Below are positions 14,988 to 42,664 of a stretch of DNA of 64,000 bases, piece by piece; position 1 is the stretch's first letter; every line of letters starts with the position of its first letter. The position numbers and the translations under genes were made by a program. The DNA comes from an uncultured Pelagibacteraceae bacterium (GTDB taxonomy: Bacteria > Pseudomonadota > Alphaproteobacteria > Pelagibacterales > Pelagibacteraceae). The stretch spans positions 248,001-312,000 of the forward strand of contig CACHOJ010000001.1 of NCBI GenBank assembly GCA_902581405.1, read 5' to 3'. Below the pieces are notes generated by a model. The model did no database searches and had not been told where the DNA came from. It saw only the letters and a program-made list of their open reading frames with translations.

Positions 14988-15013
14988 GAGCCCGCTAATT
15001 TCATAGCGGGCTC
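14988..15013 (+). terminator. Hairpin after the DctP gene (terminator or mRNA stabiliser)
   Basis: GAGCCCGCTA (14988-14997) and TAGCGGGCTC (15004-15013) form a perfect 10-bp stem with a six-base loop. It is exceptionally GC-rich for this sequence. Only a short TT follows, so it may act as a processing or stability barrier rather than a full intrinsic terminator. Confidence 0.7.
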
Positions 15014-15038
15014 TTCCAAAATCTAGTATATTAGTAAA

Positions 15039-16016
15039 ATGGCAGTTAAAGCACTTAGTTATATTGGAGTTAATTCTGATAAATTTGAGGATTGGTCTAT
15101 TTATTCACAAAAGTACTTAGGCATGCAAAAGATAGATCGTGGAAAAGATATTTTATCTTTTCGTATGGATGATCAAAAACAAAGATTAACTATCACAGGT
15201 GAAAATGGTGATGACCTTGGTTTTTTAGGGTGGGAAGTTGAAACTAAAGAAGATCTTCAAATTTTTGCATCAAAACTTGAAAAAAATAAAACAGTTGTTC
15301 AACAAGGTAAATCTTCTTTAGCAGATAAACGTTTTGTTGAAGATTTAATTTATTTTGATGATCCACAAGGGAACCGTATAGAACTTGTTTATAAACCAAT
15401 GTTAGATACTGATTCTTTTAAGCCTGGAAGACCTATTTCTGGATTTAAGACAGGAGCTTTAGGAATGGGCCACGCTGTTGTTCATGTAAAGAAAATTGAC
15501 GATTTAATACCTTTTTATAGAGATATAATGGGCTTTAAAATTAGTGATTATAGCCATACACCTATATCATTATGTTTTTTTCATGTTAATGGAAGGCACC
15601 ATAGTTTAGCGTTGTTTGGTTCTGGAAGAACAGGCTTTCACCATTTTATGGTTGAATATAATAATCTTGATGATGTTGGCCAAGGTTATGACTTATTACA
15701 GTATAAAGATAATGCAATCGCTTACACAATGGGAAGACATACAAATGATTACATGACATCTTTTTATTCAATAACCCCATCTGGTTTTTTTATTGAAAAT
15801 GGCTGGGGAGGGCGAATTATTGATCCAGCAACTTGGCAACCTATAGAAACATTTGAGGGACCTAGTTTTTGGGGGCATGAAAGACTTTATTTGCCAGATG
15901 AAGAAAGAATGAAATTTAGAAATAAAAGACTTGAGACTGCATCTAAAGGAAAACAAGCGCCATTGTTAATCGATTGTCCTTGGTTATATTCTAACTTAAA
16001 TAAAAAAAATAAATAA
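15039..16016 (+). CDS. Type I extradiol ring-cleavage dioxygenase (VOC superfamily)
   Basis: The 325-residue, two-module VOC protein resembles BphC-type catechol dioxygenases. Expected Fe(II) ligands are His145 (MGHAVVHV), His202 (FHHFMVE) and Glu253 (FFIENGWGG), with supporting His187/His188, His234 and a Tyr near 242, all in the right order. The length fits a roughly 300-residue two-domain enzyme. It would open a catechol-like ring by meta cleavage in the cytoplasm. It is nine bases upstream of an aromatic hydroxylase, which fits a hydroxylate-then-cleave pathway. Confidence 0.88.
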   Translation: MAVKALSYIGVNSDKFEDWSIYSQKYLGMQKIDRGKDILSFRMDDQKQRLTITGENGDDLGFLGWEVETKEDLQIFASKLEKNKTVVQQGKSSLADKRFVEDLIYFDDPQGNRIELVYKPMLDTDSFKPGRPISGFKTGALGMGHAVVHVKKIDDLIPFYRDIMGFKISDYSHTPISLCFFHVNGRHHSLALFGSGRTGFHHFMVEYNNLDDVGQGYDLLQYKDNAIAYTMGRHTNDYMTSFYSITPSGFFIENGWGGRIIDPATWQPIETFEGPSFWGHERLYLPDEERMKFRNKRLETASKGKQAPLLIDCPWLYSNLNKKNK

Positions 16017-16024
16017 AAATATCA

Positions 16025-17485
16025 ATGAGAGAATTTGATATAGTAATTGTAGGACTAGGTCCTACAGGGGGAACATTAGCAAATCTTTTTGCTATGCATG
16101 GTTTTTCAATTTTAATACTTGATAAAGAAGAAAGTTTTTACCCATTACCCAGAGCTGTTCATTTTGATGACGAAATAATGAGGGTATTTCAAACTATAGG
16201 GATAACAAAAAATTTTTTGAAATATACTATTATAAACAAAGGTACAAAATTTGTTAATTCGAATCAAAAAGTAATATTAGATTGGCCTAGACCAAAAAAA
16301 ATTACAGATAATGGTTGGTACCCAAGTTATAGATTCCATCAACCAGATTTGGAAAAACAGCTCAGAAAAAGATTAAAAAGTTATAAAAAAGTATTAATAG
16401 AGCAAAATGCTAATGTATTAAAAATTAAAAATTCTAAAAATAATGTAAATATCAAATATATAAATTCCAAAAGCAAAAAAATTTTTCATATAAAGTCAAA
16501 ATATTTAGTTGGATGTGATGGAGCTAATTCAGTTACCAGAAGACAAATGAAAACAAAGATGAATAACTTAGGTTTTACACAGAAATGGGCAGTTGTAGAT
16601 CTAATTTTAAAAAAGAATAAAAAAAATTTACCGGATAGGACAATTCAGTATTCAAATCCTAAACAACCCGCAACTTACTGTAGAAATGTCGGCAAAAGAA
16701 GAAGATGGGAATTTGCAATTAAAAAAAATCTTAGCGATAAAAAAGTTTTATCTGAAAATTATATTTGGAATTTTTTAAAACCCTGGATTAAGAAAAGTGA
16801 AGCTATACTTGAAAGGAAGACTGTTTATACCTTTAAATCAGGAATGGCGAGAAAATGGCGTAAAGGTAGAATATTTATTGCTGGAGATGCGGCTCATTTA
16901 ATGCCTCCATTTATGGGACAAGGAATGTGTGCTGGAATAAGAGATGCATCAAATCTAGCATGGAAAATTTCATTATGCTTAAGGGTTAAACATAATGAGG
17001 CTCTTTTAAATTCATATCAATCTGAAAGGTCGCTTAATGTTAAAGAATATATTGAAACAACTATGAGAATGGGAGAGTTTGTAAATGCAGTAGAATCAAT
17101 ACAAATAACTAAAAATATAAGTTCTAACGATAAAGGCATTAAAAGTATGCAATCAATTAAACCAAAATTAGGAGACGGTATAGGACATGTGAAAGATAAA
17201 AATAGAGGAAAAGTTTTTCCTCAATTTAAATTAAAAAAAAATAAAAATTTGGATGATTATTTTTCAAAAAAAGGAATTATAATATTGTCATCTGAAATAA
17301 GAGCAAAAAATATAAAAAATTGTTCTTTACTAAAAGTGAAAAACTTAAAAAGTATATCAGCCTATTTAAAAAATATTAATTCAAAAGCTATTTTAGTAAG
17401 ACCAGATAGATTTATTTTGGGTTCTGCTAATTCAAATCAAGAATTTAATTCGATTTTAAAAAAATATTCAAATATTTTAAGATAA
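16025..17485 (+). CDS. FAD-dependent aromatic-ring monooxygenase (PHBH/MhpA-like)
   Basis: The 486-residue protein has the three FAD/NAD(P)H signatures of class A flavoprotein hydroxylases: GLGPTGG at residues 10-16, GCDGANSVTR at 163-172 and FIAGDAAHLMPPFMGQGM at 284-301. The C-terminal part is a shorter version of the thioredoxin-like tail seen in MhpA-type enzymes. It probably hydroxylates a phenolic acid using NAD(P)H and O2. The gene overlaps the end of the convergent BKACE gene by nine bases and follows the dioxygenase gene, so the two likely act in sequence. Confidence 0.9.
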   Translation: MREFDIVIVGLGPTGGTLANLFAMHGFSILILDKEESFYPLPRAVHFDDEIMRVFQTIGITKNFLKYTIINKGTKFVNSNQKVILDWPRPKKITDNGWYPSYRFHQPDLEKQLRKRLKSYKKVLIEQNANVLKIKNSKNNVNIKYINSKSKKIFHIKSKYLVGCDGANSVTRRQMKTKMNNLGFTQKWAVVDLILKKNKKNLPDRTIQYSNPKQPATYCRNVGKRRRWEFAIKKNLSDKKVLSENYIWNFLKPWIKKSEAILERKTVYTFKSGMARKWRKGRIFIAGDAAHLMPPFMGQGMCAGIRDASNLAWKISLCLRVKHNEALLNSYQSERSLNVKEYIETTMRMGEFVNAVESIQITKNISSNDKGIKSMQSIKPKLGDGIGHVKDKNRGKVFPQFKLKKNKNLDDYFSKKGIIILSSEIRAKNIKNCSLLKVKNLKSISAYLKNINSKAILVRPDRFILGSANSNQEFNSILKKYSNILR

Positions 17486-18262
17486 ATTAAAAAGCTTATT
17501 TACTGCTTTTATCTTTGAATGATTATCAGGTGCAATTTCTCCATCCGGCATAAATAAAGAGTTTTCAAATCCTACTCTTATCTTGCCACCCAGACTAACT
17601 GCCTTTTCTAGACAACTCATTTCTTCTTTTCCAAATGCACATATAGACCAGTCAAAATTAACACTATTTGCTCTCATTTTTTCAATGAACTCAGGAATTT
17701 TTTTTGGATAACTGATTTTGCCACTATAATGACCAATTACAAATAAACACCATACTCCATCTACAGGAATTTCTGATTTCTTCAAAAGATCAATTAATAA
17801 ATCTATATCATCTGGGTTATACAAAATATGTTGAATTTTTGTTCCAGCTTCAGTCAAATATCTATACAATTTAATATCTTCGATTGTGGGTTTTCTGGAG
17901 GGTATTAATTCAGATGTGCCAATAGAAGTTCCAGGTGGGGTAACGTCATAAGCAAGTTTCCTCATATCATCTGGGGAATATTTTCCTATTGCTTCAGTTG
18001 TAACTTGTATGTGCATGTTTGGAACTTGAAATTCTAACTCTTTTAAAGCTTCTTTGTACAAGCCGGCATCAAGCACATGTTCTCCTTTATCATTTCTTAC
18101 ATGTAAATGGATTGCTTTAGCACCTGCTTCAAAGCAGTTTTTAGCTACTTCAACAGTCTCTTTTATTGTTAAAGGTACCTCAGGGTGATCTTTCTTTACT
18201 TTTCTAGCTCCATTTGGAGCAACCATCAAACTCGGTAATTTATCTGGTTGAAAAAAAGCCAT
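17477..18262 (-). CDS. BKACE-family beta-keto acid cleavage enzyme
   Basis: The 261-residue TIM-barrel protein matches the DUF849/BKACE family: VAPNGARKVKKDHPEVPLT near residue 14-32, zinc-binding His52 and His54 in IHLHVRND, and VRVGFENSLF-type ending (here RVGFENSLFM). The family condenses a beta-keto acid with acetyl-CoA to give a CoA ester and acetoacetate; the founding member acts in lysine fermentation. The true beta-keto substrate is unknown. It is convergent with the monooxygenase and divergent from the class II aldolase. Confidence 0.92.
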   Translation of the reverse strand: MAFFQPDKLPSLMVAPNGARKVKKDHPEVPLTIKETVEVAKNCFEAGAKAIHLHVRNDKGEHVLDAGLYKEALKELEFQVPNMHIQVTTEAIGKYSPDDMRKLAYDVTPPGTSIGTSELIPSRKPTIEDIKLYRYLTEAGTKIQHILYNPDDIDLLIDLLKKSEIPVDGVWCLFVIGHYSGKISYPKKIPEFIEKMRANSVNFDWSICAFGKEEMSCLEKAVSLGGKIRVGFENSLFMPDGEIAPDNHSKIKAVNKLFNLS

Positions 18263-18306
18263 ATATTGATTCTAATCAAAATTTAGAATTATTATATATA
18301 AATAAA

Positions 18307-18936
18307 ATGAAACTACAAAAAAAAGAAATTATTAAATTTGCTAAAATGCTTAATGATAAAAAATTATCAGCATTAAGATCAGGTAATATTTCAATAAGAT
18401 ATAAAAATGGATTTCTAATAACACCTTCAGGTCAAAAATATTCATCTTTAAAAGTAAAAGATATTGTTTTTGTAAATCTAAAAGGTGAGTTTAATAATAA
18501 ACAAAAACCTTCTTCTGAATGGAGATTCCATCAAGATATATATATTTCAAAGACAAATGCTAAAGCGATAGTTCATTCTCATTCTACAAATGCTACAGCT
18601 CTATCAACACATAATAAAAAAATACCTTCATTTCATTACATGGTGGCCTTAGCCGGCGGATCAGATATTAAATGTGCAAAATATGCAACTTATGGAACGA
18701 GAGAATTATCAAAAAATATTCTTAAAGCTTTAAAAAACAGATTTGCATGTTTAATCGCTAATCATGGACAGATTACATTTGGATCTAGTCTTGCAGAAGC
18801 ATTTGAATTAGCAGAGGAAGTAGACAATCTTGCCAAACATTACATCAAAGCTCTCTTATTGGGACGACCTAAACTTTTAAGTTTAAATGAAATGAAAAAA
18901 GTTTTAAATAAGAGCAAAACATATAAAAAAAATTAG
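18307..18936 (+). CDS. Class II aldolase, L-fuculose-phosphate-aldolase-like
   Basis: The 209-residue enzyme has the zinc and catalytic residues of class II aldolases in FucA order: Glu71 (PSSEWRFH), His90 and His92 (VHSHSTNATAL) and His153 (ANHGQ). IPSFHYMVALAGG and YATYGTRELS are close to FucA and unlike MtnB dehydratases. The ATG at 18307 is chosen because longer frames run into the divergent BKACE gene. Two bases separate it from the SpeD-SpeE fusion. In the DHAP shunt, such aldolases split methylthioribulose-1-phosphate to DHAP and methylthioacetaldehyde, which fits mtnP and mtnA in this window. The specific substrate is inferred. Confidence 0.85.
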   Translation: MKLQKKEIIKFAKMLNDKKLSALRSGNISIRYKNGFLITPSGQKYSSLKVKDIVFVNLKGEFNNKQKPSSEWRFHQDIYISKTNAKAIVHSHSTNATALSTHNKKIPSFHYMVALAGGSDIKCAKYATYGTRELSKNILKALKNRFACLIANHGQITFGSSLAEAFELAEEVDNLAKHYIKALLLGRPKLLSLNEMKKVLNKSKTYKKN

Positions 18937-18937
18937 A

Positions 18938-19981
18938 ATGACAACAAAAGTTGGAGAACATATTACACTTGATATTTTAGGAACAAAGAAAGAATACGAT
19001 CCAACTTTTTATGAAAAATTAGTCTATAAAATTGCAAAAATTGCAAAAGTAACAGTATTAGAAATAACAAAATATAAGTTTGAACCACAAGGATTTACTC
19101 TTGTAGCTTTACTTGCAGAAAGCCATATAAGCTTTCATACATTTCCTGAAAAAGGCATAATAAGTTTTGATTTTTTTACATGTGCAAAAGTATCCCCTTC
19201 AGTAGCTTTGGATGTTATTAAAGAGGAAATTGATCATACAAATATAATTATTAAAAAATTTAATAGGGATACTATAGACCATTATCATGACAATTATAGC
19301 TCGCCGGGTCTGAAGAAGTCGTACATAGTTAAAAAAGTTTTAGAAAAATTTAAATCTGAGGTTGGGCAGCAAATAGAAATTTTAGAATTAGAACAGTTTG
19401 GTAAAGCACTATTCATAGATAACGAAATTCAGGTGGCTGAGAGTGATGAGCACTTATATAGCTCAACATTTGTTAACTCTGGACTTTATCTAAATTCAAA
19501 TAAAGAAAAAGCCGCAATAATTGGTGGAGGTGACGGAGGTGTTGCAAGAGAGTGTATTTCAAAAAATTTTGGTTTTATTGATTGGTTTGAATTAGATCCA
19601 GAGGTTGTAAATGTTTGCGACAAACACTTAGCAAAAATTGGAAACAAAGCTACAGAAAAAAATTCAGTAAATTGTGTGTGGGGGGATGCTTTTGAAAGTA
19701 TTAAAACAATTAACGATAATACTTATGATCAAATATTTGTTGATTTAAATGATGATCAGTACTGCATCGATTTAGCTGCTAAAAATATGAATGCCTTAGA
19801 AAGAATATTAAAACCAAAAGGTGTAATAACAACTCAAGTAGGCAGTCAGGATAAAAAACCTGACCAAGTAAATAATTGGCTTAATGTATTTAATAAAAAT
19901 TTTGGTAATACAAAATTGTCGAGAGTTTACATACCTAGTTTTGACTGCTCTTGGAACTTTTCATCATCTATAAATCATTAG
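18938..19981 (+). CDS. SpeD-SpeE fusion: S-adenosylmethionine decarboxylase plus aminopropyltransferase
   Basis: The 347-residue protein joins two enzymes. Residues 1-120 are bacterial SpeD: ESHISFHTFPE gives pyruvoyl-forming Ser62, processing His67 and FFTCAK gives Cys82, spaced as in Thermotoga SpeD. Residues 125-347 are an aminopropyltransferase with IIGGGDGGVARE (near 195) and ELDPEVVNV. The usual DSSDP-like catalytic motif is DLNDDQYC here: both aspartates are kept but Pro is lost. Expected role: decarboxylate AdoMet and transfer aminopropyl to a diamine, releasing methylthioadenosine. The altered motif may change acceptor choice. Confidence 0.92.
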   Translation: MTTKVGEHITLDILGTKKEYDPTFYEKLVYKIAKIAKVTVLEITKYKFEPQGFTLVALLAESHISFHTFPEKGIISFDFFTCAKVSPSVALDVIKEEIDHTNIIIKKFNRDTIDHYHDNYSSPGLKKSYIVKKVLEKFKSEVGQQIEILELEQFGKALFIDNEIQVAESDEHLYSSTFVNSGLYLNSNKEKAAIIGGGDGGVARECISKNFGFIDWFELDPEVVNVCDKHLAKIGNKATEKNSVNCVWGDAFESIKTINDNTYDQIFVDLNDDQYCIDLAAKNMNALERILKPKGVITTQVGSQDKKPDQVNNWLNVFNKNFGNTKLSRVYIPSFDCSWNFSSSINH

Positions 19982-20038
19982 AATTTTCTTTTTTATTCTA
20001 TCAATTTATGAAATAATTAAATTTTAACGGAGGAAATA

Positions 20039-20866
20039 ATGAATATATTAAAAAAAACTTTTTTTTCGATTATAATTTCTTTATTTTTAATCAGCAGTTC
20101 AAATGCTGATAAAATAAGAATTGGAACGGAGGGCGCTTATCCTCCCTGGAATTCAAAAGATGCTTCAGGGAAATTAATTGGTTTTGAAGTAGAACTAGCT
20201 TGGCAGTTATGCAGATATATCGGTCAACAATGTGAAATAGTTGAACAAGATTGGGACGGAATGATACCGGCATTAACATCTAAAAAATTTGATGCAATCA
20301 TGGCCGGAATGTCAATCACTGAGGAAAGAATGAAAACAATTAATTTTTCACAAGGATATGCAGATGAAGTTGCATCTTTAGCAGTTATGAAAGGTTCAGA
20401 CCTTGAAGGAATAGACACTCCTGATGCTGTAAACTTAAACCTTGGCGGATCAGCTGTTAATAAAGCAATGAAAACATTAACATCTGCTTTATCGGGAAAA
20501 ACAGTTTGTACTCAAATTGGTACAATTCACCAAAACTTTCTTGAGTCTGGAGATGTAGGAAAAGTAAATTTAAAAACTTACAAGACACAAGATGAGGTTA
20601 ACCTTGATTTATCTAACGGAAGATGTGATGTAGCATTAGCTGCTGCGGTTGCATTTACCGATTATGCTGAAAAGTCTGGTGAAGCTGTTGTACTTGTGGG
20701 ACCAACTTTTTCAGGTGGTGCATTTGGTAATGGTGTTGGAGTAGGTATTAGAAAAGATGACACTAAACTTTTAAAAGCCTTTAATAAAGCTATAGATAAA
20801 GCAAGAAAAGACGGCCATATTAGTAGAATTGCTATTAAATGGTTTGGTTTTGACGCTTCTATGTAA
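20039..20866 (+). CDS. Polar amino-acid ABC transporter substrate-binding protein
   Basis: The 275-residue protein has a signal peptide (cleavage after SSSNA, about residue 23) and the SBP family 3 fold: IRIGTEGAYPPWN at the start of the mature protein, GFEVELAWQLC, DWDGMIPALTSKKFDAIMAGMSIT and a C-terminal KARKDGHISRIAIKWFG. These features match lysine/arginine/ornithine/octopine-type binders. It is preceded by a strong ribosome-binding site (CGGAGG) and followed by a hairpin and two permease genes. Confidence 0.93.
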   Translation: MNILKKTFFSIIISLFLISSSNADKIRIGTEGAYPPWNSKDASGKLIGFEVELAWQLCRYIGQQCEIVEQDWDGMIPALTSKKFDAIMAGMSITEERMKTINFSQGYADEVASLAVMKGSDLEGIDTPDAVNLNLGGSAVNKAMKTLTSALSGKTVCTQIGTIHQNFLESGDVGKVNLKTYKTQDEVNLDLSNGRCDVALAAAVAFTDYAEKSGEAVVLVGPTFSGGAFGNGVGVGIRKDDTKLLKAFNKAIDKARKDGHISRIAIKWFGFDASM

Positions 20867-20880
20867 TTAATTTTAGATGT

Positions 20881-20903
20881 GGCGACTATAATATATAGTC
20901 GCC
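20881..20903 (+). terminator. Hairpin between binding-protein and permease genes
   Basis: GGCGACTATA (20881-20890) pairs perfectly with TATAGTCGCC (20894-20903) around a three-base loop. There is no T tract, so it is more likely a 3' stability or processing element than a classical terminator. The permease ATG follows seven bases later without a clear ribosome-binding site. Confidence 0.65.
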
Positions 20904-20910
20904 AATCTAT

Positions 20911-21603
20911 ATGGAACTTCTATCATTTGGAGACACTGGTTGGGGAGACGAACTATTTTTCGCAACCCTAATGACAATCGCTGTATCAATTGCTGCAATG
21001 GCAATTGGATTTGTGTTTGCATTAATATTTACTCCTTTAAAATTATCTAAAAATAAAACACTTAATGTAATTGGAAATTGTTACACTACAATTATTAGAG
21101 GTGTTCCAGAACTATTAGTAATTTATTTATTATTTTTTGGTGGCACAGGAGCTGTAATGTATGTTGCCTCAATTTTTGGATATGATGGTTATATTGAGAT
21201 TAATGCATTTATAACTGGTGCTCTTGCCATAGGGATTATATCAGGAGCATATTCAACAGAAGTTTTTAGAGGAGCAATATTGTCAATTGATAAAGGTCAA
21301 TTCGAAGCGTCTCAGGTTTTAGGAATAAAGAAAAGTATTCAATTTTATAAAGTTATTTTACCCCAGATGTTGAGACTATCTATTCCGAACCTAAGTAACG
21401 TTTGGCAAATAACATTAAAAGATACATCTTTAATATCTGTAACTGGATTGGTAGAAATTATGAGACAGTCCTATATCGCAGCAGGATCTACAAGAGATCC
21501 ATTATTTTTTTATTCTGTTGCTGCAGTTCTATATTTAGTTCTCACATTTTTAAGCATGAAAATAATAAATAAATTAGAAGCTAGGTTTAACAAAGGTTAC
21601 TAA
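20911..21603 (+). CDS. Amino-acid ABC transporter permease (HisQ-like)
   Basis: The 230-residue membrane protein has about five helices and the HisMQ-type EAA loop (QFEASQVLGIKKSIQFYKVILPQ, near residue 130-152) that contacts the ATPase. The IIRGVPELLVIYLLFF segment near 67-83 is standard for polar amino-acid importers. It overlaps the second permease by one base. No ATP-binding subunit is encoded in the cluster. Confidence 0.93.
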   Translation: MELLSFGDTGWGDELFFATLMTIAVSIAAMAIGFVFALIFTPLKLSKNKTLNVIGNCYTTIIRGVPELLVIYLLFFGGTGAVMYVASIFGYDGYIEINAFITGALAIGIISGAYSTEVFRGAILSIDKGQFEASQVLGIKKSIQFYKVILPQMLRLSIPNLSNVWQITLKDTSLISVTGLVEIMRQSYIAAGSTRDPLFFYSVAAVLYLVLTFLSMKIINKLEARFNKGY

Positions 21604-22280
21604 TGGATATAAATTTAATGATCAGTATTTTTCCCAGCCTGTTAAACGGGACAGTTATAACTCTAAAACTTTTAATATCCTCTATGTTTTTTGGACTGTT
21701 AATTGGTCTATTTTTTGCAATTTTAAGAATTAACAATAATCCTCTAATTAATAAGTTTGCCTACGGATATTCTTATTTTTTCAGAGGCACACCATTGCTT
21801 GTTCAATTATATTTAATCTATTATGGTTTAGCTAATATTGAATTTCTAAGAAATTCATTTTTATGGGTGGTTATTAGAGAACCTTATTGGTGTGCAATTA
21901 TTGCATTTTCACTAAATACTGGAGCATACACATCTGAAATTTTAAGATCGGCTTTCCAAACAATAAAAGAGGGTTATATAGAGGCTGCACAAAGTTTAGG
22001 TGTCTCAAAGAAAATTACTTTTTATAAGATACAAATTCCAATAGCAATAAAACAATCACTACCTGCTTATGGAAATGAGATAATTTTAATGCTAAAAGGT
22101 ACATCTTTGGCAAGTGTAATAACAATTATGGATTTAATGGGGGAAGCTAGAAAAGTAAACGTTTTAACTTTTAAGCCATTCGAAGCTTTTATTACTGCAG
22201 GAATAATATATTTATTTTTAACTTTTATAATTCACAATATTGTAAAGTATCTAGAAAAAAAATACGGATTTCAAACATGA
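21603..22280 (+). CDS. Amino-acid ABC transporter permease (HisM-like)
   Basis: The 225-residue partner permease has the matching EAA loop (GYIEAAQSLGVSKKITFYKIQIP) and FFRGTPLLVQLYLIYYG near residue 60-75. The two permeases would form a heterodimer in the inner membrane. It overlaps the nitrilase gene by four bases where an ATPase gene would normally come. Confidence 0.93.
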   Translation: MDINLMISIFPSLLNGTVITLKLLISSMFFGLLIGLFFAILRINNNPLINKFAYGYSYFFRGTPLLVQLYLIYYGLANIEFLRNSFLWVVIREPYWCAIIAFSLNTGAYTSEILRSAFQTIKEGYIEAAQSLGVSKKITFYKIQIPIAIKQSLPAYGNEIILMLKGTSLASVITIMDLMGEARKVNVLTFKPFEAFITAGIIYLFLTFIIHNIVKYLEKKYGFQT

Positions 22281-27582: not shown

Positions 27583-27611
27583 TTGACACTAAATATAAAT
27601 CTATGTTTAAT
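27583..27611 (+). promoter_or_regulatory. Promoter of tctCBA operon
   Basis: A perfect TTGACA (27583-27588) is 17 bases from TTTAAT (27606-27611). Predicted start near 27618 gives a leader of about 28 bases ending in the ribosome-binding site AGAGAGGA before ATG 27646. Confidence 0.55.
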
Positions 27612-27645
27612 ATCGGGTATTATAATTATAATAAGAGAGGAAATA

Positions 27646-28626
27646 ATGAAACTAATTAAATCTTTAATTACAGTTTTATTCTCAACTTTGCTTTTAATTT
27701 CAGCAACAACTTCAAGCTCAGTAGCAATGGATAAATTGCACTTTGTAATCGGTGGTGGTGCTGGAGGTGGTTGGGATGGAACTGCTAGAGGAACAGGAGA
27801 AGCTTTAACAAAAGCTGGAATGTTAAAAAGTGCATCATTTGAAAATATGTCAGGTGGTGGAGGTGGAAAAGCTTTAGCTTATATGATTAACACAAAGCCA
27901 GCTAATACAATTCTAGTTCAATCAACACCATTGGTCTTAAGATCAATCACAAGACACAAAGGTTATGTAAAAGGTAATGGTACTTTATCTTATAAAGATG
28001 TTGTGCCAATTGCTGGAGTTATTGGTGATTATGGGGCTATTGCAGTAGCAAAAAGTTCACCTTTTAAAAACTTTAAAGATGTAGTTGATGCTTACAATAA
28101 AGATCCTAATTCAGTTAAGATGGCTGGTGGTTCTGTAAGAGGAAGCATGGACCATTTAATTGGCGCTTTAGCATTTCAAGCTGCAGGAGCTGACCCGAAT
28201 GCAGTTGCATACATACCATATGATGCTGGAGGAAAAGCATTAGCTGGACTTTTATCTGGGGAAACTCAAATTATATCAACAGGCTTAGGTGAATTGATGG
28301 GTGCAAGAGACCAAGTAAGAATTATTGGTATTACTGCTCCATCAAGAGTATCTGATGCTCCAGATGCGCCAACATTAAAAGAACAAGGATATGATGTTCA
28401 ATTCGTGAACTGGAGAGGTTTTTTTGGACCTCCAGGAATGAGCAATTCTGATAAATCAAAAATTGCTAAAATGTTAGGTGACGTACAAAAAACTCCTGAG
28501 TGGGAAACTGTAAGAGCAAGAAATGCATGGGTAAATATTTATAACCCAGAAGGAAAGTTTGTTTCTTTCTTAGAAAAACAAACTGAAGAAATGACAGCTC
28601 TTATGAAAAAACTAGGAGTAATTTAA
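27646..28626 (+). CDS. tctC: Tripartite tricarboxylate transporter substrate-binding protein (TctC/Bug family)
   Basis: The 326-residue binding protein has a signal peptide ending near residue 27 (SSSVAMD) and the Bug fold: LHFVIGGGAGGGWDGTARGTGEAL near residue 29-52 and, later, GGSVRGSMDHLIGALAFQAAGADP. ATG 27646 is chosen over one 63 bases upstream because it follows a strong AGAGAGGA site and begins the signal peptide. Bug proteins bind carboxylic acids and hand them to TctAB. First gene of tctC-tctB-tctA-amine oxidase. Confidence 0.93.
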   Translation: MKLIKSLITVLFSTLLLISATTSSSVAMDKLHFVIGGGAGGGWDGTARGTGEALTKAGMLKSASFENMSGGGGGKALAYMINTKPANTILVQSTPLVLRSITRHKGYVKGNGTLSYKDVVPIAGVIGDYGAIAVAKSSPFKNFKDVVDAYNKDPNSVKMAGGSVRGSMDHLIGALAFQAAGADPNAVAYIPYDAGGKALAGLLSGETQIISTGLGELMGARDQVRIIGITAPSRVSDAPDAPTLKEQGYDVQFVNWRGFFGPPGMSNSDKSKIAKMLGDVQKTPEWETVRARNAWVNIYNPEGKFVSFLEKQTEEMTALMKKLGVI

Positions 28627-28642
28627 TCTTTAAGATTATTTA

Positions 28643-28695
28643 AAAAAAGAGCAGTGAATATAAACACCACAAAAATTATATCACTGCTCTTTTTT
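28643..28695 (+). terminator. Terminator-like hairpin spanning the tctB start
   Basis: Bases 28643-28657 pair with 28681-28695 in a perfect 15-bp stem (core GAGCAGTGA/TCACTGCTC, flanked by A6/T6) with a 23-base loop and a terminal T run. The GTG start of tctB (28654) lies within the 5' arm. It can act as an attenuator between tctC and tctBA, and can also hide the start codon. Confidence 0.75.
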
Positions 28696-29124
28696 ATTTT
28701 CTCAGCATTCTATTTATATACTGCATACCAAATTCAAGTTTTTGCATTTGATGAAAATGCACCATTTAATGCTAGAACATTTCCAATTTATTTAGGCTAT
28801 GCAGGATTATTTTTTTCTGGGTTAAAGCTTATTCTACCTGAGCCTAACACCATAAAAGTAGACCATAAAAATCTAGAGTATAAAAAAACAGGGATACTTA
28901 TAGTAATTGCAATTATTTATGGGGCTACAATTTTAAAAGTTGGATACTTTTTAACAACATCTTTATTTTTATTTTCATCTTATTATTTTTTAGGTGAGAG
29001 AAGGTGGGTCTTAATGTTTTTATTATCTTTTCCCTTCGTGGCAGCTTTTATGTACCTTCTTCATGGTATTCTTGATATTTATTTAAGAGATCCATTTTTA
29101 CAATCAATCGGAGTTATGGGATGA
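28654..29124 (+). CDS. tctB: Tripartite tricarboxylate transporter small membrane subunit (TctB)
   Basis: The 156-residue protein has four membrane helices, the TctB architecture, with FNARTFPIYLGYAGLF near residue 38-53. It starts at GTG 28654; no other start would include the whole first helix. There is no good ribosome-binding site, and the start is buried in the stem of a terminator-like hairpin. It overlaps tctA by four bases. Confidence 0.88.
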   Translation: MNINTTKIISLLFFIFSAFYLYTAYQIQVFAFDENAPFNARTFPIYLGYAGLFFSGLKLILPEPNTIKVDHKNLEYKKTGILIVIAIIYGATILKVGYFLTTSLFLFSSYYFLGERRWVLMFLLSFPFVAAFMYLLHGILDIYLRDPFLQSIGVMG

Positions 29125-36023: not shown

Positions 36024-36889
36024 GAAGAGTATTTATAATTTTTATCGCTTTATTAATATCTCTGAATACTGCAGTAGCTAATGAAAAATTTGAGTTTAGA
36101 TACAATATTCATGAAAATTTACCCAAAAAATGGGTAACTGAATTCAAGAATATAATGGATGTTTTACAAGAAGTTCTACCTATTCAAGATAATATGAATG
36201 ATTATCTCAAAAGTCCAGGAATGGATATCTATGCTTGGAAAAGTACAAAAAATCCTTTTCCAGAAGTTAAGAATAATATGAAAGGTTCATGTATTTGTGG
36301 TGATGGTTCAACTAGATGGATGCAGATAGAAATACCAAGTAAAGAATTAGCAAAAAAATATATACACCGTTATTCTGTGATTGCTCATGAATATTTTCAT
36401 GTTTATCAAATATCACTTTCAGAAAATAAACTATCAGATAGAGACTCACCAAAATGGTTAACCGAAGGAGGAGCAAAAGTTTTTGAAGAAATGTATGTGA
36501 AACAATATTATGGAAAAGACAGTTTAAAAAATGATCTTCAAAGAAAAGAAATGTGGAGTAAAAAGGTTTTAAAAGAACCTAGCCTTTACGAAAAACACAA
36601 AACATCAAATAAAAGAGGAATGGATGGCAATTATACAGGTTCTGCCTTCATGGTGCTAGTATTAGTAAATGAACTGAAGAAAAATAATATTTCTGAACAA
36701 CAAGCTTTTCAATTAGTTTTTAAAGATTTTTGGATTGAGAGAGCAAAGCACAGAAAATGGGAAAAAGCATTTGAGCAGACTTTTAAAATGAGTGCTGGAG
36801 AATTTTATGAAAGATTAAGTAAATATAAAAGAGTCGTAAAAAAAATATTACCGAGTAAGAACTTAAAAATTCAAGATATTTTTAGTTAA
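36020..36889 (+). CDS. Secreted gluzincin-like metallopeptidase (HExxH...E)
   Basis: The 289-residue protein has a signal peptide (cleavage after TAVA, residue 20). His123-Glu124-x-x-His127 (IAHEYFHVYQ) is followed 22 residues later by Glu149 in PKWLTEGGAKVFEE, the spacing and sequence of gluzincin or 'peptidase MA-like' proteases. Two close cysteines (CIC, residues 91-93) precede it. It should be a periplasmic zinc protease; substrate unknown. It overlaps the upstream secreted-protein gene by four bases. Confidence 0.8.
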   Translation: MRRVFIIFIALLISLNTAVANEKFEFRYNIHENLPKKWVTEFKNIMDVLQEVLPIQDNMNDYLKSPGMDIYAWKSTKNPFPEVKNNMKGSCICGDGSTRWMQIEIPSKELAKKYIHRYSVIAHEYFHVYQISLSENKLSDRDSPKWLTEGGAKVFEEMYVKQYYGKDSLKNDLQRKEMWSKKVLKEPSLYEKHKTSNKRGMDGNYTGSAFMVLVLVNELKKNNISEQQAFQLVFKDFWIERAKHRKWEKAFEQTFKMSAGEFYERLSKYKRVVKKILPSKNLKIQDIFS

Positions 36890-36903
36890 TCCTTAACTGA
36901 TCT

Positions 36904-37104
36904 TCAGAAAAGAAGGTCATTAACTGAGTAAATAATTAATCCTAAAATAATTAGAAAAAATATTATAAAAGCTATTTGCTCACTAATTTTTTTAGTAACT
37001 TTGGTTTCACCTTTTTTAAATTTTCTGATTTGAAATATTCCAAACCTCATAACAGCCAATCCACCTAAAACAAGTGCTACAGCAATAATAAATCCACTTA
37101 GCAT
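36904..37104 (-). CDS. Small two-helix membrane protein, unknown
   Basis: From ATG 37104 the product is 66 residues with two membrane helices (about 2-21 and 44-62) and a basic Lys-rich loop between them. A longer frame begins at 37176, inside the PNPOx gene. I prefer 37104 because it begins one base after that gene's stop codon and directly at the first helix. No function is recognised. Confidence 0.55.
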   Translation of the reverse strand: MLSGFIIAVALVLGGLAVMRFGIFQIRKFKKGETKVTKKISEQIAFIIFFLIILGLIIYSVNDLLF

Positions 37105-37105
37105 T

Positions 37106-37711
37106 TTATGGGACAAGCCAGTTTTGTTTATTATTTGAGATATCAAATCTTGCTCTTCTATGACCTTTTGCTGCAAGATATAACCATTCTATACTCTCAA
37201 TATTGCATTGAATTACAGTAAAGTTTTTATAGCCTTCTTCACTTTGTTCCATTGTAAAACCAGATTTTTCAATTTCCTCACTTAAACCAGAACTAGGCTC
37301 ATCAATTTCAGTGCCAGGACCATTATTTACTAAATAGCATTTTCTACTTACATGGGCTGTTTTTGACCATGATAGTTCTGTAATTTCATTATCATGATTA
37401 ACAACACAATTCACTTTAACTCTAAGTTGAATCTTTTCTTCTTTGTCATAGAATATTAATACTGCACTGCTATTTTTTTTTAATTTTGGAATTTTGTTAG
37501 ATCGTATATCGCTATGAAACTGAAGAAGATTATTTGATTGGTCAGATTTTCTAAGAACTACTATCCTTCCATCAAAGTCTGATTGATCACCGCAAACAAA
37601 AACTGGAATTCTAAAAGGAGATGATCTATTAGTCACTGCATCATCAAGCATTGACCATATTTTTTTCTTTATTTCGGAAAAGTCCTCATAGTATGGGACG
37701 GTATTTGACAT
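37106..37711 (-). CDS. Pyridoxamine-phosphate-oxidase-family flavin protein
   Basis: The 201-residue protein (start taken at ATG 37711, just after the preceding dehydrogenase stop; another ATG lies 30 bases earlier inside that gene) has a PNPOx-like split beta-barrel. It shows FRIPVFVCGDQSDFDGRIVVLRKSD, then LQFHSDIRSNKIPKLKKN where flavin phosphate binds in PdxH relatives, and a C-terminal EWLYLAAKGHRRARFD that fits PdxH-like ends. It is not PdxH itself (motifs are diverged). The exact role is unknown. Confidence 0.8.
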   Translation of the reverse strand: MSNTVPYYEDFSEIKKKIWSMLDDAVTNRSSPFRIPVFVCGDQSDFDGRIVVLRKSDQSNNLLQFHSDIRSNKIPKLKKNSSAVLIFYDKEEKIQLRVKVNCVVNHDNEITELSWSKTAHVSRKCYLVNNGPGTEIDEPSSGLSEEIEKSGFTMEQSEEGYKNFTVIQCNIESIEWLYLAAKGHRRARFDISNNKQNWLVP

Positions 37712-37715
37712 TGGT

Positions 37716-38591
37716 TTATTTCTTTTTTTTAAGTCTAGCAATCAGACTAGAGCTATCCCAACGGTTACCACCCATTTTTTGAACATCAGCATAATATTCA
37801 TCAACTATTTCAGTAATTGGGACCGGTGAACCATTTCGTTTCGCTTCTTCAATTACAATTTTTAAATCTTTTCTCATCCAATCTACTGCAAAACCGTAAT
37901 CAAATTTATCTTCAACCATAGTTTTATATCTATTTTCCATTTGCCAAGATTGAGCTGCGCCTTTTGAAATTGTTTCCATCACTTTATCAATATCTAAACC
38001 TGCATTTATTCCAAAATTAATAGCTTCTGATAGACCTTGTACAACGCCTGCAATACACATTTGGTTCATCATTTTTGTAAGTTGACCACTTCCTGATGGA
38101 CCAATTAATTTTACTTTTTTACTATAGCAATCAATTACTGGTTCTGCTTTTTTGAAAACTTCTTCATCACCACCAACCATAACTGTAAGAATTCCGCCTT
38201 CAGCACCTGATTGACCTCCAGAAATTGGTGCATCTAAAAATGCAAATCCTTTTTCTTTCGCTTTATTATAAAGTTCTCTCGATACTTCTGCTGATACAGT
38301 TGAATTATCTACGTAGATTGAACCCTTTTTAGCGCTATGAAATAATCCGTTTTCACCTAAAGTAACTTGTTTCAAATCCTCATCGTTACCCACACAAGTA
38401 AAAATAAAATCAGCACCTTCCGCAGCTTCTTTTGGTGTTGAAGCCATTTTACCTTTATATTCAGTAATCCATTTTTCAGCTTTAGCAGTTGTTCTATTAA
38501 AAACAGTTACATTGTGCCCAGCTTTTGATATATAACCAGCCATCGGATAACCCATTACCCCGAGACCTATGAAAGCAACATTACAAGTCAT
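37716..38591 (-). CDS. 3-hydroxyisobutyrate/tartronate-semialdehyde-reductase family dehydrogenase
   Basis: The 291-residue beta-hydroxyacid dehydrogenase has the NAD(P) site GLGVMGYPMAG at residues 8-18, the FLDAPISGGQSGAEGGILTVMVGG substrate region near 117-140, and Lys in GQLTKMMNQMC (near residue 170), the catalytic lysine position. Members act on 3-hydroxyisobutyrate, tartronate semialdehyde or similar short hydroxyacids, and sequence alone does not separate these. It is divergent from the MFS gene with 11 bases between. Confidence 0.93.
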   Translation of the reverse strand: MTCNVAFIGLGVMGYPMAGYISKAGHNVTVFNRTTAKAEKWITEYKGKMASTPKEAAEGADFIFTCVGNDEDLKQVTLGENGLFHSAKKGSIYVDNSTVSAEVSRELYNKAKEKGFAFLDAPISGGQSGAEGGILTVMVGGDEEVFKKAEPVIDCYSKKVKLIGPSGSGQLTKMMNQMCIAGVVQGLSEAINFGINAGLDIDKVMETISKGAAQSWQMENRYKTMVEDKFDYGFAVDWMRKDLKIVIEEAKRNGSPVPITEIVDEYYADVQKMGGNRWDSSSLIARLKKKK

Positions 38592-38602
38592 AAATTATTT
38601 AT

Positions 38603-39811
38603 ATGTTTAAAAGTTTAAGTTTAAAAGTAATTATTTTCGGATTTATTTTTACATTTTTTTCATGTTTTGGACAGAGTTTTTTTATAGGTTTATTTAATTC
38701 AAGCATCAGAGAAACACTTTCTATTACACATGGACAATTTGGCACGATTTATGCATCAGCTACTCTATTTAGTAGTTTACTTCTAATATGGATTGGAAAA
38801 AAAATTGATGATGTAAACGTGCTTAAATTTGCAATTTTTGTTACTATACTTTTATCATTTTCTTCTTTTTTCTTTTCCAAAACATCTTCAGTAGCTTTTC
38901 TATTTGTTGCAATTTTTTTAATGAGGTTTTCTGGACAAGGATTAATGTCTCATACAGCTTCAACTACTATTTCAAGATATTTTACAAAATCTAGAGGCAA
39001 AGCATTAAGCATTATTTGGTTTGGTTTATCCTCTGCAGAGTTCATAATGCCTGTATTAATCGTTTATCTTTTAACACTAATTGTTTGGCAGAATTTATGG
39101 GTAATCTTTTCTTTAATTGTTTTAATTTGCTTGCCCTTGGCATCTTATATTTTAGTTAAAGATGTCAAATTAGATACTAGAGAGGGTGGTCAAAACAAAA
39201 TTTTGAAAGAAGAAAATATTAAAAACTGGAAAAGAATAGAGGTTCTTGGAGATTATAGATTTTACATTGTCTCCTTAAATATGTTGGCAATGCCTTGGAT
39301 AGCTACAGGAGTATTTGTATATCAATCATTCGTCACTAATTCAAAAGGGTGGGGTGAATATACAATTGCGCAATCTTTTATGTCTTACTCAATTTTTTCT
39401 GTAATTACTTTAATTGTTGCTGGTTATTTGATTGATAAGTTTACAAGTAGAAAATTACTAATCTATATGAATATTCCATTATTCTTAGGAACTTTAGTAA
39501 TCATATATTTTGATGCTCCACAGACTGCTTTTTTATTTCTTGGATTGGTAGGAATATCAAACGGTCTAGCAAACTTATTAGGATCATCAACGTGGGCAGA
39601 AATTTACGGGGTAAAATATATTGGATCTATTAAAGCTTTGACTACTGCTTTAATGGTATTCGCAACTGCTTTTGGTACAGCATTATTTGGCTTTTTTATA
39701 GATGCTGGATTTTCAATTGAAAAAATCGCATTTATTGCAGCAATTGCTATAGCATGCTCTATAGCCTTACTTTTCACTATAAGAAAAAAATTAAATCCAG
39801 TTTATCTCTAA
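38603..39811 (+). CDS. MFS-type permease
   Basis: The 402-residue protein has twelve predicted helices, with IRETLSITHGQFGTIYASATLF near residue 32 and SRGKALSIIWFGLSSAEFIMP (near 130), the MFS loop and helix-4/5 pattern of monocarboxylate or sugar-acid carriers. GYLIDKFTSRKLL near 270 is the second-half loop. Substrate unknown. The neighbour 3-hydroxyacid dehydrogenase is on the other strand, so a shared organic-acid theme is only a suggestion. Confidence 0.88.
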   Translation: MFKSLSLKVIIFGFIFTFFSCFGQSFFIGLFNSSIRETLSITHGQFGTIYASATLFSSLLLIWIGKKIDDVNVLKFAIFVTILLSFSSFFFSKTSSVAFLFVAIFLMRFSGQGLMSHTASTTISRYFTKSRGKALSIIWFGLSSAEFIMPVLIVYLLTLIVWQNLWVIFSLIVLICLPLASYILVKDVKLDTREGGQNKILKEENIKNWKRIEVLGDYRFYIVSLNMLAMPWIATGVFVYQSFVTNSKGWGEYTIAQSFMSYSIFSVITLIVAGYLIDKFTSRKLLIYMNIPLFLGTLVIIYFDAPQTAFLFLGLVGISNGLANLLGSSTWAEIYGVKYIGSIKALTTALMVFATAFGTALFGFFIDAGFSIEKIAFIAAIAIACSIALLFTIRKKLNPVYL

Positions 39812-39817
39812 TACTGC

Positions 39818-39846
39818 TTGATTTTTTTATGATCGAGGTGTATCTA
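39818..39846 (+). promoter_or_regulatory. Promoter of rpoZ
   Basis: TTGATT (39818-39823), 17 bases, then TATCTA (39841-39846). The expected start near 39853 would coincide with the rpoZ ATG at 39854, giving a leaderless or nearly leaderless mRNA. The -35 begins 7 bases after the MFS stop. Confidence 0.45.
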
Positions 39847-39853
39847 ACCGACC

Positions 39854-40372
39854 ATGGCAAGAGTTACTGTTGAAGATTGTATAGATAAAGTTGATAGTCC
39901 TTACGAATTAGTATTAGTTGCAAAGGAGAGAGCAACGCAACTTAATTCAGGTTTGGAACCTACTTTAGATAGAGATAATGATAAAAATACTGTCATAGCA
40001 TTAAGAGAAATAGCTGAAGAAACAATCAAAGTTCCTGATTTAACAGATGCTGCAGTTTATAAGTTAAGAAAACATGTCGAGCAAATTGATGATACTTCAG
40101 AGGACGAAGATGATATTGGCGATGATTTTGAAAATCTTTACAAAGGTGAAATTTCAAAAAGTGGTGTACCAATTCTTCCATCTAAGAGAGCTAGAAAAAT
40201 TCCAGAAAAAATTCAAGTTTCCAAAGATGATTTAGCCGAGTTACAAAATACAGCTGAACAACCTTCATCTGAAACTGTTGAAGAAGTACAAGATGAAGAG
40301 GCTGATGTTTCATTAGACGAAATGAAAGATCAAGAAGAGACTGTATCTGACGAAACAGAAAATCAAGAATAA
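39854..40372 (+). CDS. rpoZ: RNA polymerase omega subunit with acidic C-terminal extension
   Basis: The first 80 residues are a standard omega subunit: [27 protein letters not shown], then [18 protein letters not shown]. Omega helps assemble and stabilise RNA polymerase. The protein is 172 residues, much longer than the roughly 90 of E. coli, because of a highly acidic Glu/Asp/Gln tail from about residue 90. Alphaproteobacterial omegas often carry shorter tails. It ends one base from the convergent CoA-transferase stop. Confidence 0.95.
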
Positions 40373-40373
40373 A

Positions 40374-41516
40374 TTAACTAAATTCCTTAATTATTTTTTC
40401 CCTGTGCTCATCTAAATCAGGAATATCACCTCTTGTATTTTCATCTTTATAGGTAGACATTTTAATTGGGTTTCCAGCAGATTTAAATTCACCAATAATT
40501 TTATGATATGATTTTACAATCATATTTCTCTCTTTAATTTGAGGATTTTCTACAGCTTGTTTTATGTTAAAAATTGGTCCACATGGAATTTTTAATGCTT
40601 CCATTTCTTTTACCCATTCATTTGTAGATTTCGAATGTAATTGTTTTTCAAAAATTTCTTTTAATTGATCCATGTTTTCACATCTTAATGAATTAGAATT
40701 AAATCTTTCATCATTTGCAGTTTCAGGGATTTTTAATACATCACAAAGTTTTGTAAAAAGTTTATCATTTCCTGCAGCAATAATTATATAACTATCTTTA
40801 GTTTTAAAAGCTTCAAAGGGCGCAATAGATGGATGTCTGGAACCCATTGGTCCTGGAATTTCATTTTTGGAAAGATATCTTGCAATTGCATTTTCTAAAA
40901 TTGCTATTTGGCAATCTAACATAGACACATCTATAAAAGCTCCTTTTCCAGTTTTTTGTCTATCGTATAAAGCTGCATTAATTCCAATTGCTGTAAACAG
41001 ACCTGCTGTGATATCACCAATAGAAGTTCCAACTCTTGTTGGCTCAGAATTAGGATGACCAGTTACACTCATCAAACCCCCCATGCCTTGAACGACCATG
41101 TCATAAGCAGGTAATTCTTTTAAAGGTCCAGTTTGACCAAACCCTGATGCCGATGCATAAATTAATTTAGGATATTTTTTACTTACATCTTTCCAGCCAA
41201 AACCCCACTTTTCTAATGTTCCAGGTTTAAAGTTTTCTACTAAAATATCTGCCTTAGATAAAATTTTGTCAAAAATTTTTTTATCCTCTTCATTCTTTAA
41301 ATTTAAAGCGATACTTTCTTTTCCTCTATTTAAAGACATAAAGTATGCAGAATAATCTTTAACAAAAGGTCCAAATTTTCGAGAGTCATCACCTGTTTCA
41401 GGTGCTTCAATTTTTATAACTCTCGCACCTAAATCTGAGAGTATCATAGTGCAATAAGGTCCTACTAAAACCCTTGTTAAATCAACAACTAATAAATTTT
41501 TTAGTGGTCCATCCAT
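40374..41516 (-). CDS. Family III CoA-transferase (CaiB/BaiF)
   Basis: The 380-residue enzyme has the family III hallmarks: VVDLTRVLVGPYCTMILSDLGARVIKIE at the start, SLNRGKESIALNLK near residue 61, and the catalytic Asp168 in VGTSIGDITAGLFTAIGI, which carries the acyl-aspartyl/CoA intermediates. It moves CoA between organic acids. It is divergent from a TRAP system followed by malonyl-CoA decarboxylase, so activation of an imported dicarboxylate is likely. Confidence 0.93.
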   Translation of the reverse strand: MDGPLKNLLVVDLTRVLVGPYCTMILSDLGARVIKIEAPETGDDSRKFGPFVKDYSAYFMSLNRGKESIALNLKNEEDKKIFDKILSKADILVENFKPGTLEKWGFGWKDVSKKYPKLIYASASGFGQTGPLKELPAYDMVVQGMGGLMSVTGHPNSEPTRVGTSIGDITAGLFTAIGINAALYDRQKTGKGAFIDVSMLDCQIAILENAIARYLSKNEIPGPMGSRHPSIAPFEAFKTKDSYIIIAAGNDKLFTKLCDVLKIPETANDERFNSNSLRCENMDQLKEIFEKQLHSKSTNEWVKEMEALKIPCGPIFNIKQAVENPQIKERNMIVKSYHKIIGEFKSAGNPIKMSTYKDENTRGDIPDLDEHREKIIKEFS

Positions 41517-41542
41517 AATAAAATATACGACATTTCCTTATA

Positions 41543-41571
41543 TTGACTCTTACTCATAAGTTCAATTTAAT
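41543..41571 (+). promoter_or_regulatory. Promoter of third TRAP operon
   Basis: TTGACT (41543-41548), 17 bases, TTTAAT (41566-41571). This repeats the tctC promoter almost exactly (both have TATTGACwCT around the -35). Leader of about 27 bases ends in an AGAGGGGA ribosome-binding site. Confidence 0.55.
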
Positions 41572-41604
41572 ATACTTATTAAATTAATATAAAGAGGGGA
41601 AAAC

Positions 41605-42615
41605 ATGTTAAAAAAAATAAGTTTTTATTTCACAACATTATTTTTAGCTTTTTCATTAATTGGATCAGCATATGCTGTAACACTAAAAGCAAGTCACCAA
41701 TGGCCTGGAACACCTAGAGCTGATGGTTCTTATGATCCAAGACATGAAATGGTTCAAATAATTGCAGATGAAGTTAAAAAAGCAGGAGTAGATTTAGATA
41801 TTAGAATTTATCCAGCAAAATCATTATATAAACCAAAAGAACAATGGAAACCAATGACAACTGGTCAGTTGGATATTTCAGCATTTCCATTAGCGTACGC
41901 ATCAAAATTCCATCCAGAATTTGATGCAACTTTAATGCCAGGAACTGTTAAGAACCACAACCATGCATTAAGATTTAATAAAGGTCCAATGATGACTGAA
42001 ATTAAGAGAATTATAAATGATGCTGGTGTTGTTGTTCTATCTGATGCTTGGCTTGGTGGCGGTTTTGCATCTAAGTCAAAATGTATTAAAAATCCATCAG
42101 ATGCTAAAGGACAAGTAATGAGAGCAGCCGGTAAAGCTTTTAACCAAATGTTAGAGGCAGCTGGTGCGGGTATTCAAAGTATGCCTTCATCCGAAATTTA
42201 TACTGGATTGCAAACTGGAGTATTAACGGGTGCAAATACTAGTTCAGGAAGTTTTGTTAGTTACAAAATTTATGAGCAAGTAACATGCGCAACACCTCCA
42301 GGAAAATTTGGATTGTGGTTTATGTATGAGCCAATTTTGATGTCAAAAATGAGCTTTGATAAATTAAATTCAAAACAACAAGATGCTTTAATGAAGGCTG
42401 GTAAAGTTGCTGAAAAATATATGACTGCGCAAGTTGAAAATTTAGATAAAAAATTTGAAGACGCTTATAAAGCAGCAGGAGTAAAGCTAGTATATATGGA
42501 TGCAAACGACCATGCGGCTTGGGTAGAGATTGCTAAACAATCTTCACACAAAGCATTTGCTGAAAAAGTTCCAGGTGGCGATAAGCTAATGGAAATGGCT
42601 TTAGCAGTTAAATAA
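41605..42615 (+). CDS. dctP: TRAP transporter periplasmic solute-binding protein (DctP family)
   Basis: The 336-residue protein has a signal peptide (cleavage after GSAYA, residue 24) and DctP-type features: ASHQWPGTPRADGSYDPRHEMVQIIADEV, then KGQVMRAAGKAFNQML near residue 171-186 with the ligand-binding Arg region, and a Cys pair (SKCIKNP, QVTCATPP). It likely binds a dicarboxylate; the adjacent CoA-transferase and malonyl-CoA decarboxylase suggest malonate or a close relative. A terminator hairpin separates it from dctQ. Confidence 0.93.
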   Translation: MLKKISFYFTTLFLAFSLIGSAYAVTLKASHQWPGTPRADGSYDPRHEMVQIIADEVKKAGVDLDIRIYPAKSLYKPKEQWKPMTTGQLDISAFPLAYASKFHPEFDATLMPGTVKNHNHALRFNKGPMMTEIKRIINDAGVVVLSDAWLGGGFASKSKCIKNPSDAKGQVMRAAGKAFNQMLEAAGAGIQSMPSSEIYTGLQTGVLTGANTSSGSFVSYKIYEQVTCATPPGKFGLWFMYEPILMSKMSFDKLNSKQQDALMKAGKVAEKYMTAQVENLDKKFEDAYKAAGVKLVYMDANDHAAWVEIAKQSSHKAFAEKVPGGDKLMEMALAVK

Positions 42616-42630
42616 AAAAATATATTAAAG

Positions 42631-42664
42631 AACCCCTATTTAAAATATTAAATAGGGGTTTTTT
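42631..42664 (+). terminator. Intrinsic terminator between dctP and dctQ
   Basis: Bases 42631-42643 pair with 42648-42660 in a perfect 13-bp stem (core ACCCCTATTTA/TAAATAGGGGT) with a four-base loop, ending in six T residues (42659-42664). Three bases later is the dctQ ATG. The only ribosome-binding-like run, AGGGG, sits in the 3' arm. Confidence 0.85.

Follow-up and report, generated by a model that had tools for sequence, protein, structure and literature searches.

Stem-loops after the genes of solute-binding proteins (SBPs) are known from operons of ATP-binding cassette (ABC) importers. In the excerpts consulted here, Wu et al. 2022 (PMC9045158) describe such stem-loops in eight Clostridia (191 stem-loops, -38.3 to -10.1 kcal/mol), where they terminate transcription partially, and note at least 15 of them in E. 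coli. Excerpts of Dar and Sorek 2018 (PMC5927463) present the SBP gene as the stabilised part in all five E. coli ABC operons found, and a review, likewise excerpted (PMC9438474), reports that early Rho-independent termination in gltIJKL yields SroC. For SAR11, an excerpted model predicts a high ratio of binding protein to transporter, explaining high uptake affinity (PMC8168909), and PotD is described in excerpt as often among the most abundant proteins (PMC8437039). The present work concerns stable hairpins after SBP genes of an uncultured Pelagibacteraceae bacterium (SAR11), first seen in a 64,000-nucleotide stretch of DNA (the window), which is part of a 1.117-Mb, 33-contig, 78%-complete genome (G000).

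The SAR11 hairpins resemble the internal terminators of Clostridia (PMC9045158, in excerpt) in that a single GC-rich stem-loop with a variable U-tract stands between SBP and translocator genes, and the energy ranges overlap. They share with the malE-malF type, as excerpted from work on decay-regulated E. coli ABC operons (PMC5927463), a stable structure after the SBP gene and, as proposed below, the SBP as the favoured subunit; with gltIJKL/SroC (PMC9438474, in excerpt) they share, as putative terminators, the position between SBP and permease genes. Unlike the Clostridia stem-loops, they also occur in operons of tripartite ATP-independent periplasmic (TRAP) and tripartite tricarboxylate (TTT) transporters, are nearly universal among the sampled SBPs and sometimes lie inside the start of the next gene. 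Unlike the malE-malF type, they have no clear repeat of the repetitive extragenic palindromic (REP) type, and many carry U-tracts. In contrast to both, their action is predicted from sequence.

The arrangement is of a known kind, and its near-universal cross-family form was not found described for SAR11. Neither the near-universality over three transporter classes nor the scarcity after other sampled genes was found in the literature searched. The rule is absent from the matches listed for open-licence SAR11/Pelagibacter papers on hairpins or terminators after SBP genes, and no such rule was seen in excerpts of two SAR11 RNA-motif papers (PMC2704228, PMC6429828).

Hairpins after the binding-protein genes of the window

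Pfam searches identify five SBP genes in the window, three DctP (TRAP), one SBP_bac_3 (ABC) and one TctC (TTT), matching the three transporter families named in an earlier note on this DNA. That note had placed a stable hairpin directly after four of the five genes, and all four hairpins are present, at -21.3 to -22.0 kcal/mol:

13962-14975, plus strand: TRAP SBP gene (DctP; PF03480)
14988-15013, plus strand: hairpin GAGCCCGCTA/TAGCGGGCTC, without U-tract, -21.3 kcal/mol
15039-16016, plus strand: extradiol ring-cleavage dioxygenase-like gene after this hairpin (PF00903, PF22632; NCBIfam TIGR03213 below cut-off)
20039-20866, plus strand: ABC amino-acid binding-protein gene (PF00497; TIGR01096 just below cut-off)
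20880-20904, plus strand: hairpin TGGCGACTATA/TATAGTCGCCA, without U-tract, ending 6 nt upstream of the permease ATG, -22.0 kcal/mol
20911-21603, plus strand: ABC permease gene (PF00528)
27646-28626, plus strand: TTT SBP gene (TctC; PF03401, on the longer frame 27583-28626)
28642-28695, plus strand: long terminator-like hairpin with A-tract and U-tract, -21.4 kcal/mol
28654-29124, plus strand: tctB, start uncertain (PF07331)
41605-42615, plus strand: TRAP SBP gene (DctP; PF03480)
42627-42664, plus strand: intrinsic-terminator-like hairpin with a T-run at its end, 3 nt upstream of the dctQ ATG, -21.5 kcal/mol
42668-43162, plus strand: dctQ (PF04290)
43162-44493, plus strand: dctM (PF06808)

The threshold for counting a hairpin is -17 kcal/mol or below throughout. 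A home-made gene caller gives 45 same-strand junctions, and in the first 77 nt past the stop codon a hairpin stands at 4/5 of those after SBP genes and at 0/40 of those after other genes (Fisher p = 3.4e-5), in agreement with the remark of the earlier note that hairpins of such strength are missing from most other intergenic junctions. Rfam models applied to the window at gathering score detect tRNA only and no other known RNA family. No clear REP-type recurrence is seen either: beyond expected self-hits, 13-mers of the four hairpins have 0, 0, 4 and 5 extra hits, uninspected, in 286,748 bp of G000. The hairpin at 28642-28695 is not wholly intergenic, since the annotated GTG start of tctB (28654) sits in its 5' arm. 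In a second TctC group (L071-L077, L080, L081), a terminator-like hairpin with two-sided changes lies in the annotated first codons of tctB.

The TRAP operon at 1161-3961, which the earlier note had set apart as the exception, proves to hold a conserved hairpin inside the start of dctQ:

2945-3961, minus strand: TRAP SBP gene (DctP; PF03480, E 3.5e-44)
2857-2911, minus strand: hairpin within codons 1-20 of dctQ, with a 10-bp stem GCGTTGCGAG/CTCGCAATGC and a long loop, -25.0 kcal/mol
2426-2917, minus strand: dctQ, small TRAP membrane subunit (PF04290)
1161-2426, minus strand: dctM, large TRAP membrane subunit (PF06808)

This stem is retained in 5/5 ortholog sequences examined, which by our reading represent about three lineages, at -22 to -27 kcal/mol and with the core TTGCGAG/CTCGCAA. 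The codons TTG CGA and CTC are identical in all five, and two of them are rare: CGA makes up 3.5% of the Arg codons and CTC 3.0% of the Leu codons of the window. As the amino acids of dctQ are conserved too, the conservation of rare codons suggests, short of proof, that the hairpin is under selection as RNA. When the distance is widened to 117 nt, SBP genes have a hairpin at 5/5 and other genes at 1/40 same-strand junctions of the window (p = 4.9e-6).

Enrichment, spread and stem conservation

The junction test set consists of 40 stretches of three genomes (G000, G004 and G012), the window included, and of 20 further stretches spaced along G012 as background. Its curated SBPs number 56, of which 49 have a hairpin. 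SBPs assigned by homology were purged of ABC ATPases by a Walker-motif filter and manual check. At same-strand gaps of 20-160 nt, the hairpin is present at 43/49 SBP junctions, which thus have the stem-loop between SBP and next operon gene that marks the Clostridia type, against 6/191 other junctions (p = 2.4e-34; here and in the next comparison the p-values overstate the evidence, since G000 and G004 contribute orthologous and hence non-independent junctions). The scan proposed in the earlier note, which looks for stems of 9 bp or longer in the 60 nt past the stop codon, gives 37/49 against 5/191 on these stretches (p = 1.3e-27); the equal frequency at other intra-operon gaps that was to speak against the rule is not seen.

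Because part of the curated SBPs were recognised through their hairpins, counts on the first 40 stretches are also given for SBPs found by five Pfam searches alone, independently of the hairpin. These have it at 37/42 same-strand and 4/4 convergent junctions, and the remaining genes at 8/138 same-strand junctions (gaps 20-160 nt). Four of the eight positives are themselves SBPs of other Pfam families (SBP_bac_1, OpuAC, SBP_bac_5, NMT1), another is orthologous to one of those SBPs, and two come after a small open reading frame (ORF) behind an SBP gene. Over all gaps, 8/771 non-SBP same-strand junctions have a hairpin; the non-SBP counts exclude five junctions whose hairpin is a tRNA and include three genes labelled 'PBP6weak'. 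Among eight hairpin-less signal-peptide candidates tested with Pfam, only one is an SBP (Peripla_BP_4). Chance folding was considered and rejected, as 2 of 280 dinucleotide shuffles made from the 80 nt that follow SBP genes come down to -17 kcal/mol, and a gap-length artefact is ruled out by a gap-matched comparison.

Seven of the 56 curated SBPs miss the threshold. Two are Peripla_BP_4 proteins, whose hairpins have U-tracts and reach -16.1 kcal/mol; two are TRAP1 proteins with the hairpin inside dctQ (-21.1 and -25.0 kcal/mol within 117 nt); two are SBP_bac_8 proteins, which we take to be 'iron-type', a label of our own, where an ORF of 49-56 codons comes next and the hairpin follows that ORF (-18.1 and -19.2 kcal/mol). 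The last is a 255-aa SBP_bac_3 protein, whose group is a true exception. The ORF of 49-56 codons has a CxxC motif and lies between the iron-type SBP and membrane protein genes (L162:2047-2217; G004:C4:79956-80105).

SBPs from nine Pfam families have hairpins that pass the -17 kcal/mol threshold, and a tenth family, Peripla_BP_4, comes close with its -16.1. Five Pfam SBP families were searched across 25 genomes of the genus, with OpuAC added as a sixth. The short loci number 270; L108, L204 and L207 were dropped (no usable ORF or downstream sequence). Among the genus loci, 173 of 177 are counted, omitting L112-L115, which we take to be LpoA-like and which match the 'PBP6weak' genes. A hairpin is present at 156/173. 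Fifteen loci stay above -15 kcal/mol: nine 255-aa SBP_bac_3 genes, one TRAP1 gene, the iron-type L144, L111, whose convergent neighbour is 7 nt distant, and three loci (L037, L133, L219) at which a wrong ORF was taken and the true SBP genes have hairpins (-20.2, -20.8 and -19.5 kcal/mol). A second family from this order was searched with two Pfam SBP families; 48/60 of its loci have the hairpin, and 9 of the 12 misses belong to the SBP_bac_3 group. For the gene at 20039, among the best 80 of 505 relatives found, 80/80 named orthologs reach -15 and 79/80 reach -17 kcal/mol.

For the comparison with the class, a DctP search covered 57 alphaproteobacterial genomes, from which 30 loci were drawn. 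Raw energy passes 24/30 of these GC-rich loci at -17 kcal/mol, so the z-score against shuffles is used instead. At z of -3 or lower, 35/37 genus DctP loci pass against 9/30 class DctP loci, and a feature common to alphaproteobacteria was rejected on this ground. By the same measure, 27/28 OpuAC-set loci of the genus and 29/30 SBP_bac_8-set loci of the second family pass.

Clustering at 50% identity places 237 proteins in 49 groups, a few misassigned ORFs among them, and the hairpin sequences differ between the clustered SBP groups, as had been noted for the window. When a reference stem is mapped on the members of a group, at least one pair has changed on both sides in 25/29 ortholog groups. 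In doubly variable columns, a member's own arms pair in 612/739 cells and arms swapped between members in 4312/6686, in a mapping that starts from the stem predicted for each member itself and is therefore biased towards pairing. Own-cell pairing is poor in some groups (L060 18/36, L190 8/15, L191 39/66). Formal counts cover three of the window stems. The 20039 stem is 100% paired with three two-sided pairs, and 0/500 shuffles reach its covariation score, on eight representative stems picked by us, one row padded with N. The 13962 stem has two two-sided pairs among five orthologs, with 33/500 shuffles as high; in the 27646 stem a single G-C pair is replaced by A-U in 2/9 orthologs, which is weak alone, and one slid control scored higher. 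The pair counts omit A1 and A2, whose shifted arms were misaligned by MAFFT.

The stable 3' hairpin of the SBP segment thus appears to be maintained by selection. Unrelated hairpin sequences over nine Pfam families, together with the two-sided changes, support repeated selection as the best reading, which is also how the earlier note had interpreted the arrangement.

Proposed function and alternatives

The hairpins probably act by partial termination and decay blocking at the 3' end of the SBP mRNA, giving an excess of SBP over permease. Each sampled SBP gene, nearly without exception, carries its own strong 3' hairpin, at which RNA polymerase would halt in part. On transcripts that have terminated there or been cut by RNase E, the same hairpin would stop 3'-to-5' exonucleases. 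SBP mRNA would then come to exceed by far the read-through message for the permease or whichever genes follow, and a high SBP-to-transporter ratio would be fixed without a regulator. We infer, and do not observe, the partial termination, the decay protection and the resulting protein ratio.

By a simple rule, a U-tract typical of termination is found at 144/220 loci, always in 25/42 groups and never in 11/42, one of which (L078, 11 loci) is miscalled because the stem finder missed long-loop stems, so that ten remain. Termination is therefore plausible for most loci, not all. This lack of uniformity is a point for a purely post-transcriptional alternative, as at malE-malF in E. coli: polymerase would not stop at the hairpin, RNase E would cleave within the permease portion, and the sole role of the hairpin would be to shield the SBP segment. 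The 20039 hairpin is strongly conserved in a nearly U-tract-free group. Rho and RNase E/G are both encoded in 11/11 genomes searched, which agrees with the proposed mechanism and, for RNase E/G, with this alternative as well. The U-tracts at the other 144 loci count against it, and as a complete account it is rather improbable. The stable 3' structure, not the U-tract, is the shared element, a pattern consistent with partial termination and exonuclease protection in combination.

Many hairpins resemble standard intrinsic terminators and also stand at 4/4 sampled SBPs with a convergent neighbour, as expected if they were ordinary operon-end terminators of monocistronic SBP genes, with downstream genes served by their own promoters. 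The distance from stem end to the next start codon speaks against this: the median of group medians is 21 nt, which leaves little room for a promoter and would be too short for most. Moreover, a hairpin is seen at 7/61 non-SBP convergent junctions of the sampled stretches where the gap is 20 nt or more; such an operon end is thus rare in them, and we regard the explanation as very unlikely. A further alternative is that the chief role of the hairpins is to hinder translation start on the next gene, whose start region they would bury. The tctB GTG lies within the stem after 27646, the dctQ hairpin nearly adjoins its ATG, and stem ends lie 2-10 nt upstream of the start in several group medians; in many groups, however, the distance is 20-110 nt, and SBPs with a convergent next gene have hairpins too, which makes a main role in translation block highly doubtful.

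Several observations weigh against partial termination with decay blocking as a general rule. Such a hairpin is also found at 16/1102 non-SBP junctions (both kinds). The SBP_bac_3 group of 254-256 aa (L056-L058, L061-L066, L255-L264; 19 loci) is without it, with 1/19 loci (L264) reaching -17 kcal/mol, and in G012 the hairpin-less SBP_bac_3 gene has sarcosine oxidase genes on one side and a permease gene on the other. The groups without U-tract, together with U-tracts in only 1/18 loci of the 20039 group and 1/4 of the 13962 group, indicate that termination is not a uniform mechanism. The ABC permease, tctB and dctQ follow at 20039, 27646 and 41605. At 13962 the next genes are catabolic and not the TRAP permease; dctQ and dctM are divergent and upstream there (11196-12994, minus strand). 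The rule that a hairpin occurs only where the cognate permease follows was tried and rejected, as the SBP_bac_3 gene with a permease next in G012 has none and SBPs with convergent neighbours have one.

If partial termination and decay blocking are true, the mechanism described for ABC importers in Clostridia and E. coli reaches further, to TRAP and TTT systems. The hairpin is then a candidate sequence element for setting SBP excess in nearly every transport operon, with a strength that can be measured, swapped and compared across ecotypes. The read depth of an SBP gene may then differ from that of the remaining operon, which would help in interpreting genomes and metatranscriptomes of SAR11.

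Other genes with a hairpin and neighbours of the window genes

The 20 background stretches spaced along G012 yield eight non-tRNA hairpins that reach -17 kcal/mol. Three follow SBPs; the other five follow HU, proteorhodopsin, AmtB and CarD genes, plus one largely coding stretch. The G012:C1 genes concerned are proteorhodopsin (210099-210866) and those we take from sequence, without family search, to be HU (437587-437862) and AmtB (438001-439302). Such genes are probably of high expression, and their hairpins hint at a mark for super-abundant products generally; a strong hairpin may flag genes meant for super-abundance. A wider reading, to which we give slightly less than even credence, is that SAR11 almost reserves strong 3' hairpins for SBPs and a few super-abundant proteins, leaving most genes and operon ends without them. 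The hairpin would then act, in all three SBP-dependent transporter classes, as a hard-wired and regulator-free gain control of the SBP excess that oligotrophic uptake relies on.

The SBP gene at 13962 is flanked by a fumarylacetoacetate (FAA) hydrolase gene (13062) and by ring-cleavage dioxygenase and FAD hydroxylase genes (15039, 16025), and the region 11196-17485 is a possible cluster for aromatic uptake and breakdown. Upstream of the ABC system, a single 347-aa gene at 18938-19981 fuses S-adenosylmethionine decarboxylase and spermidine synthase domains.

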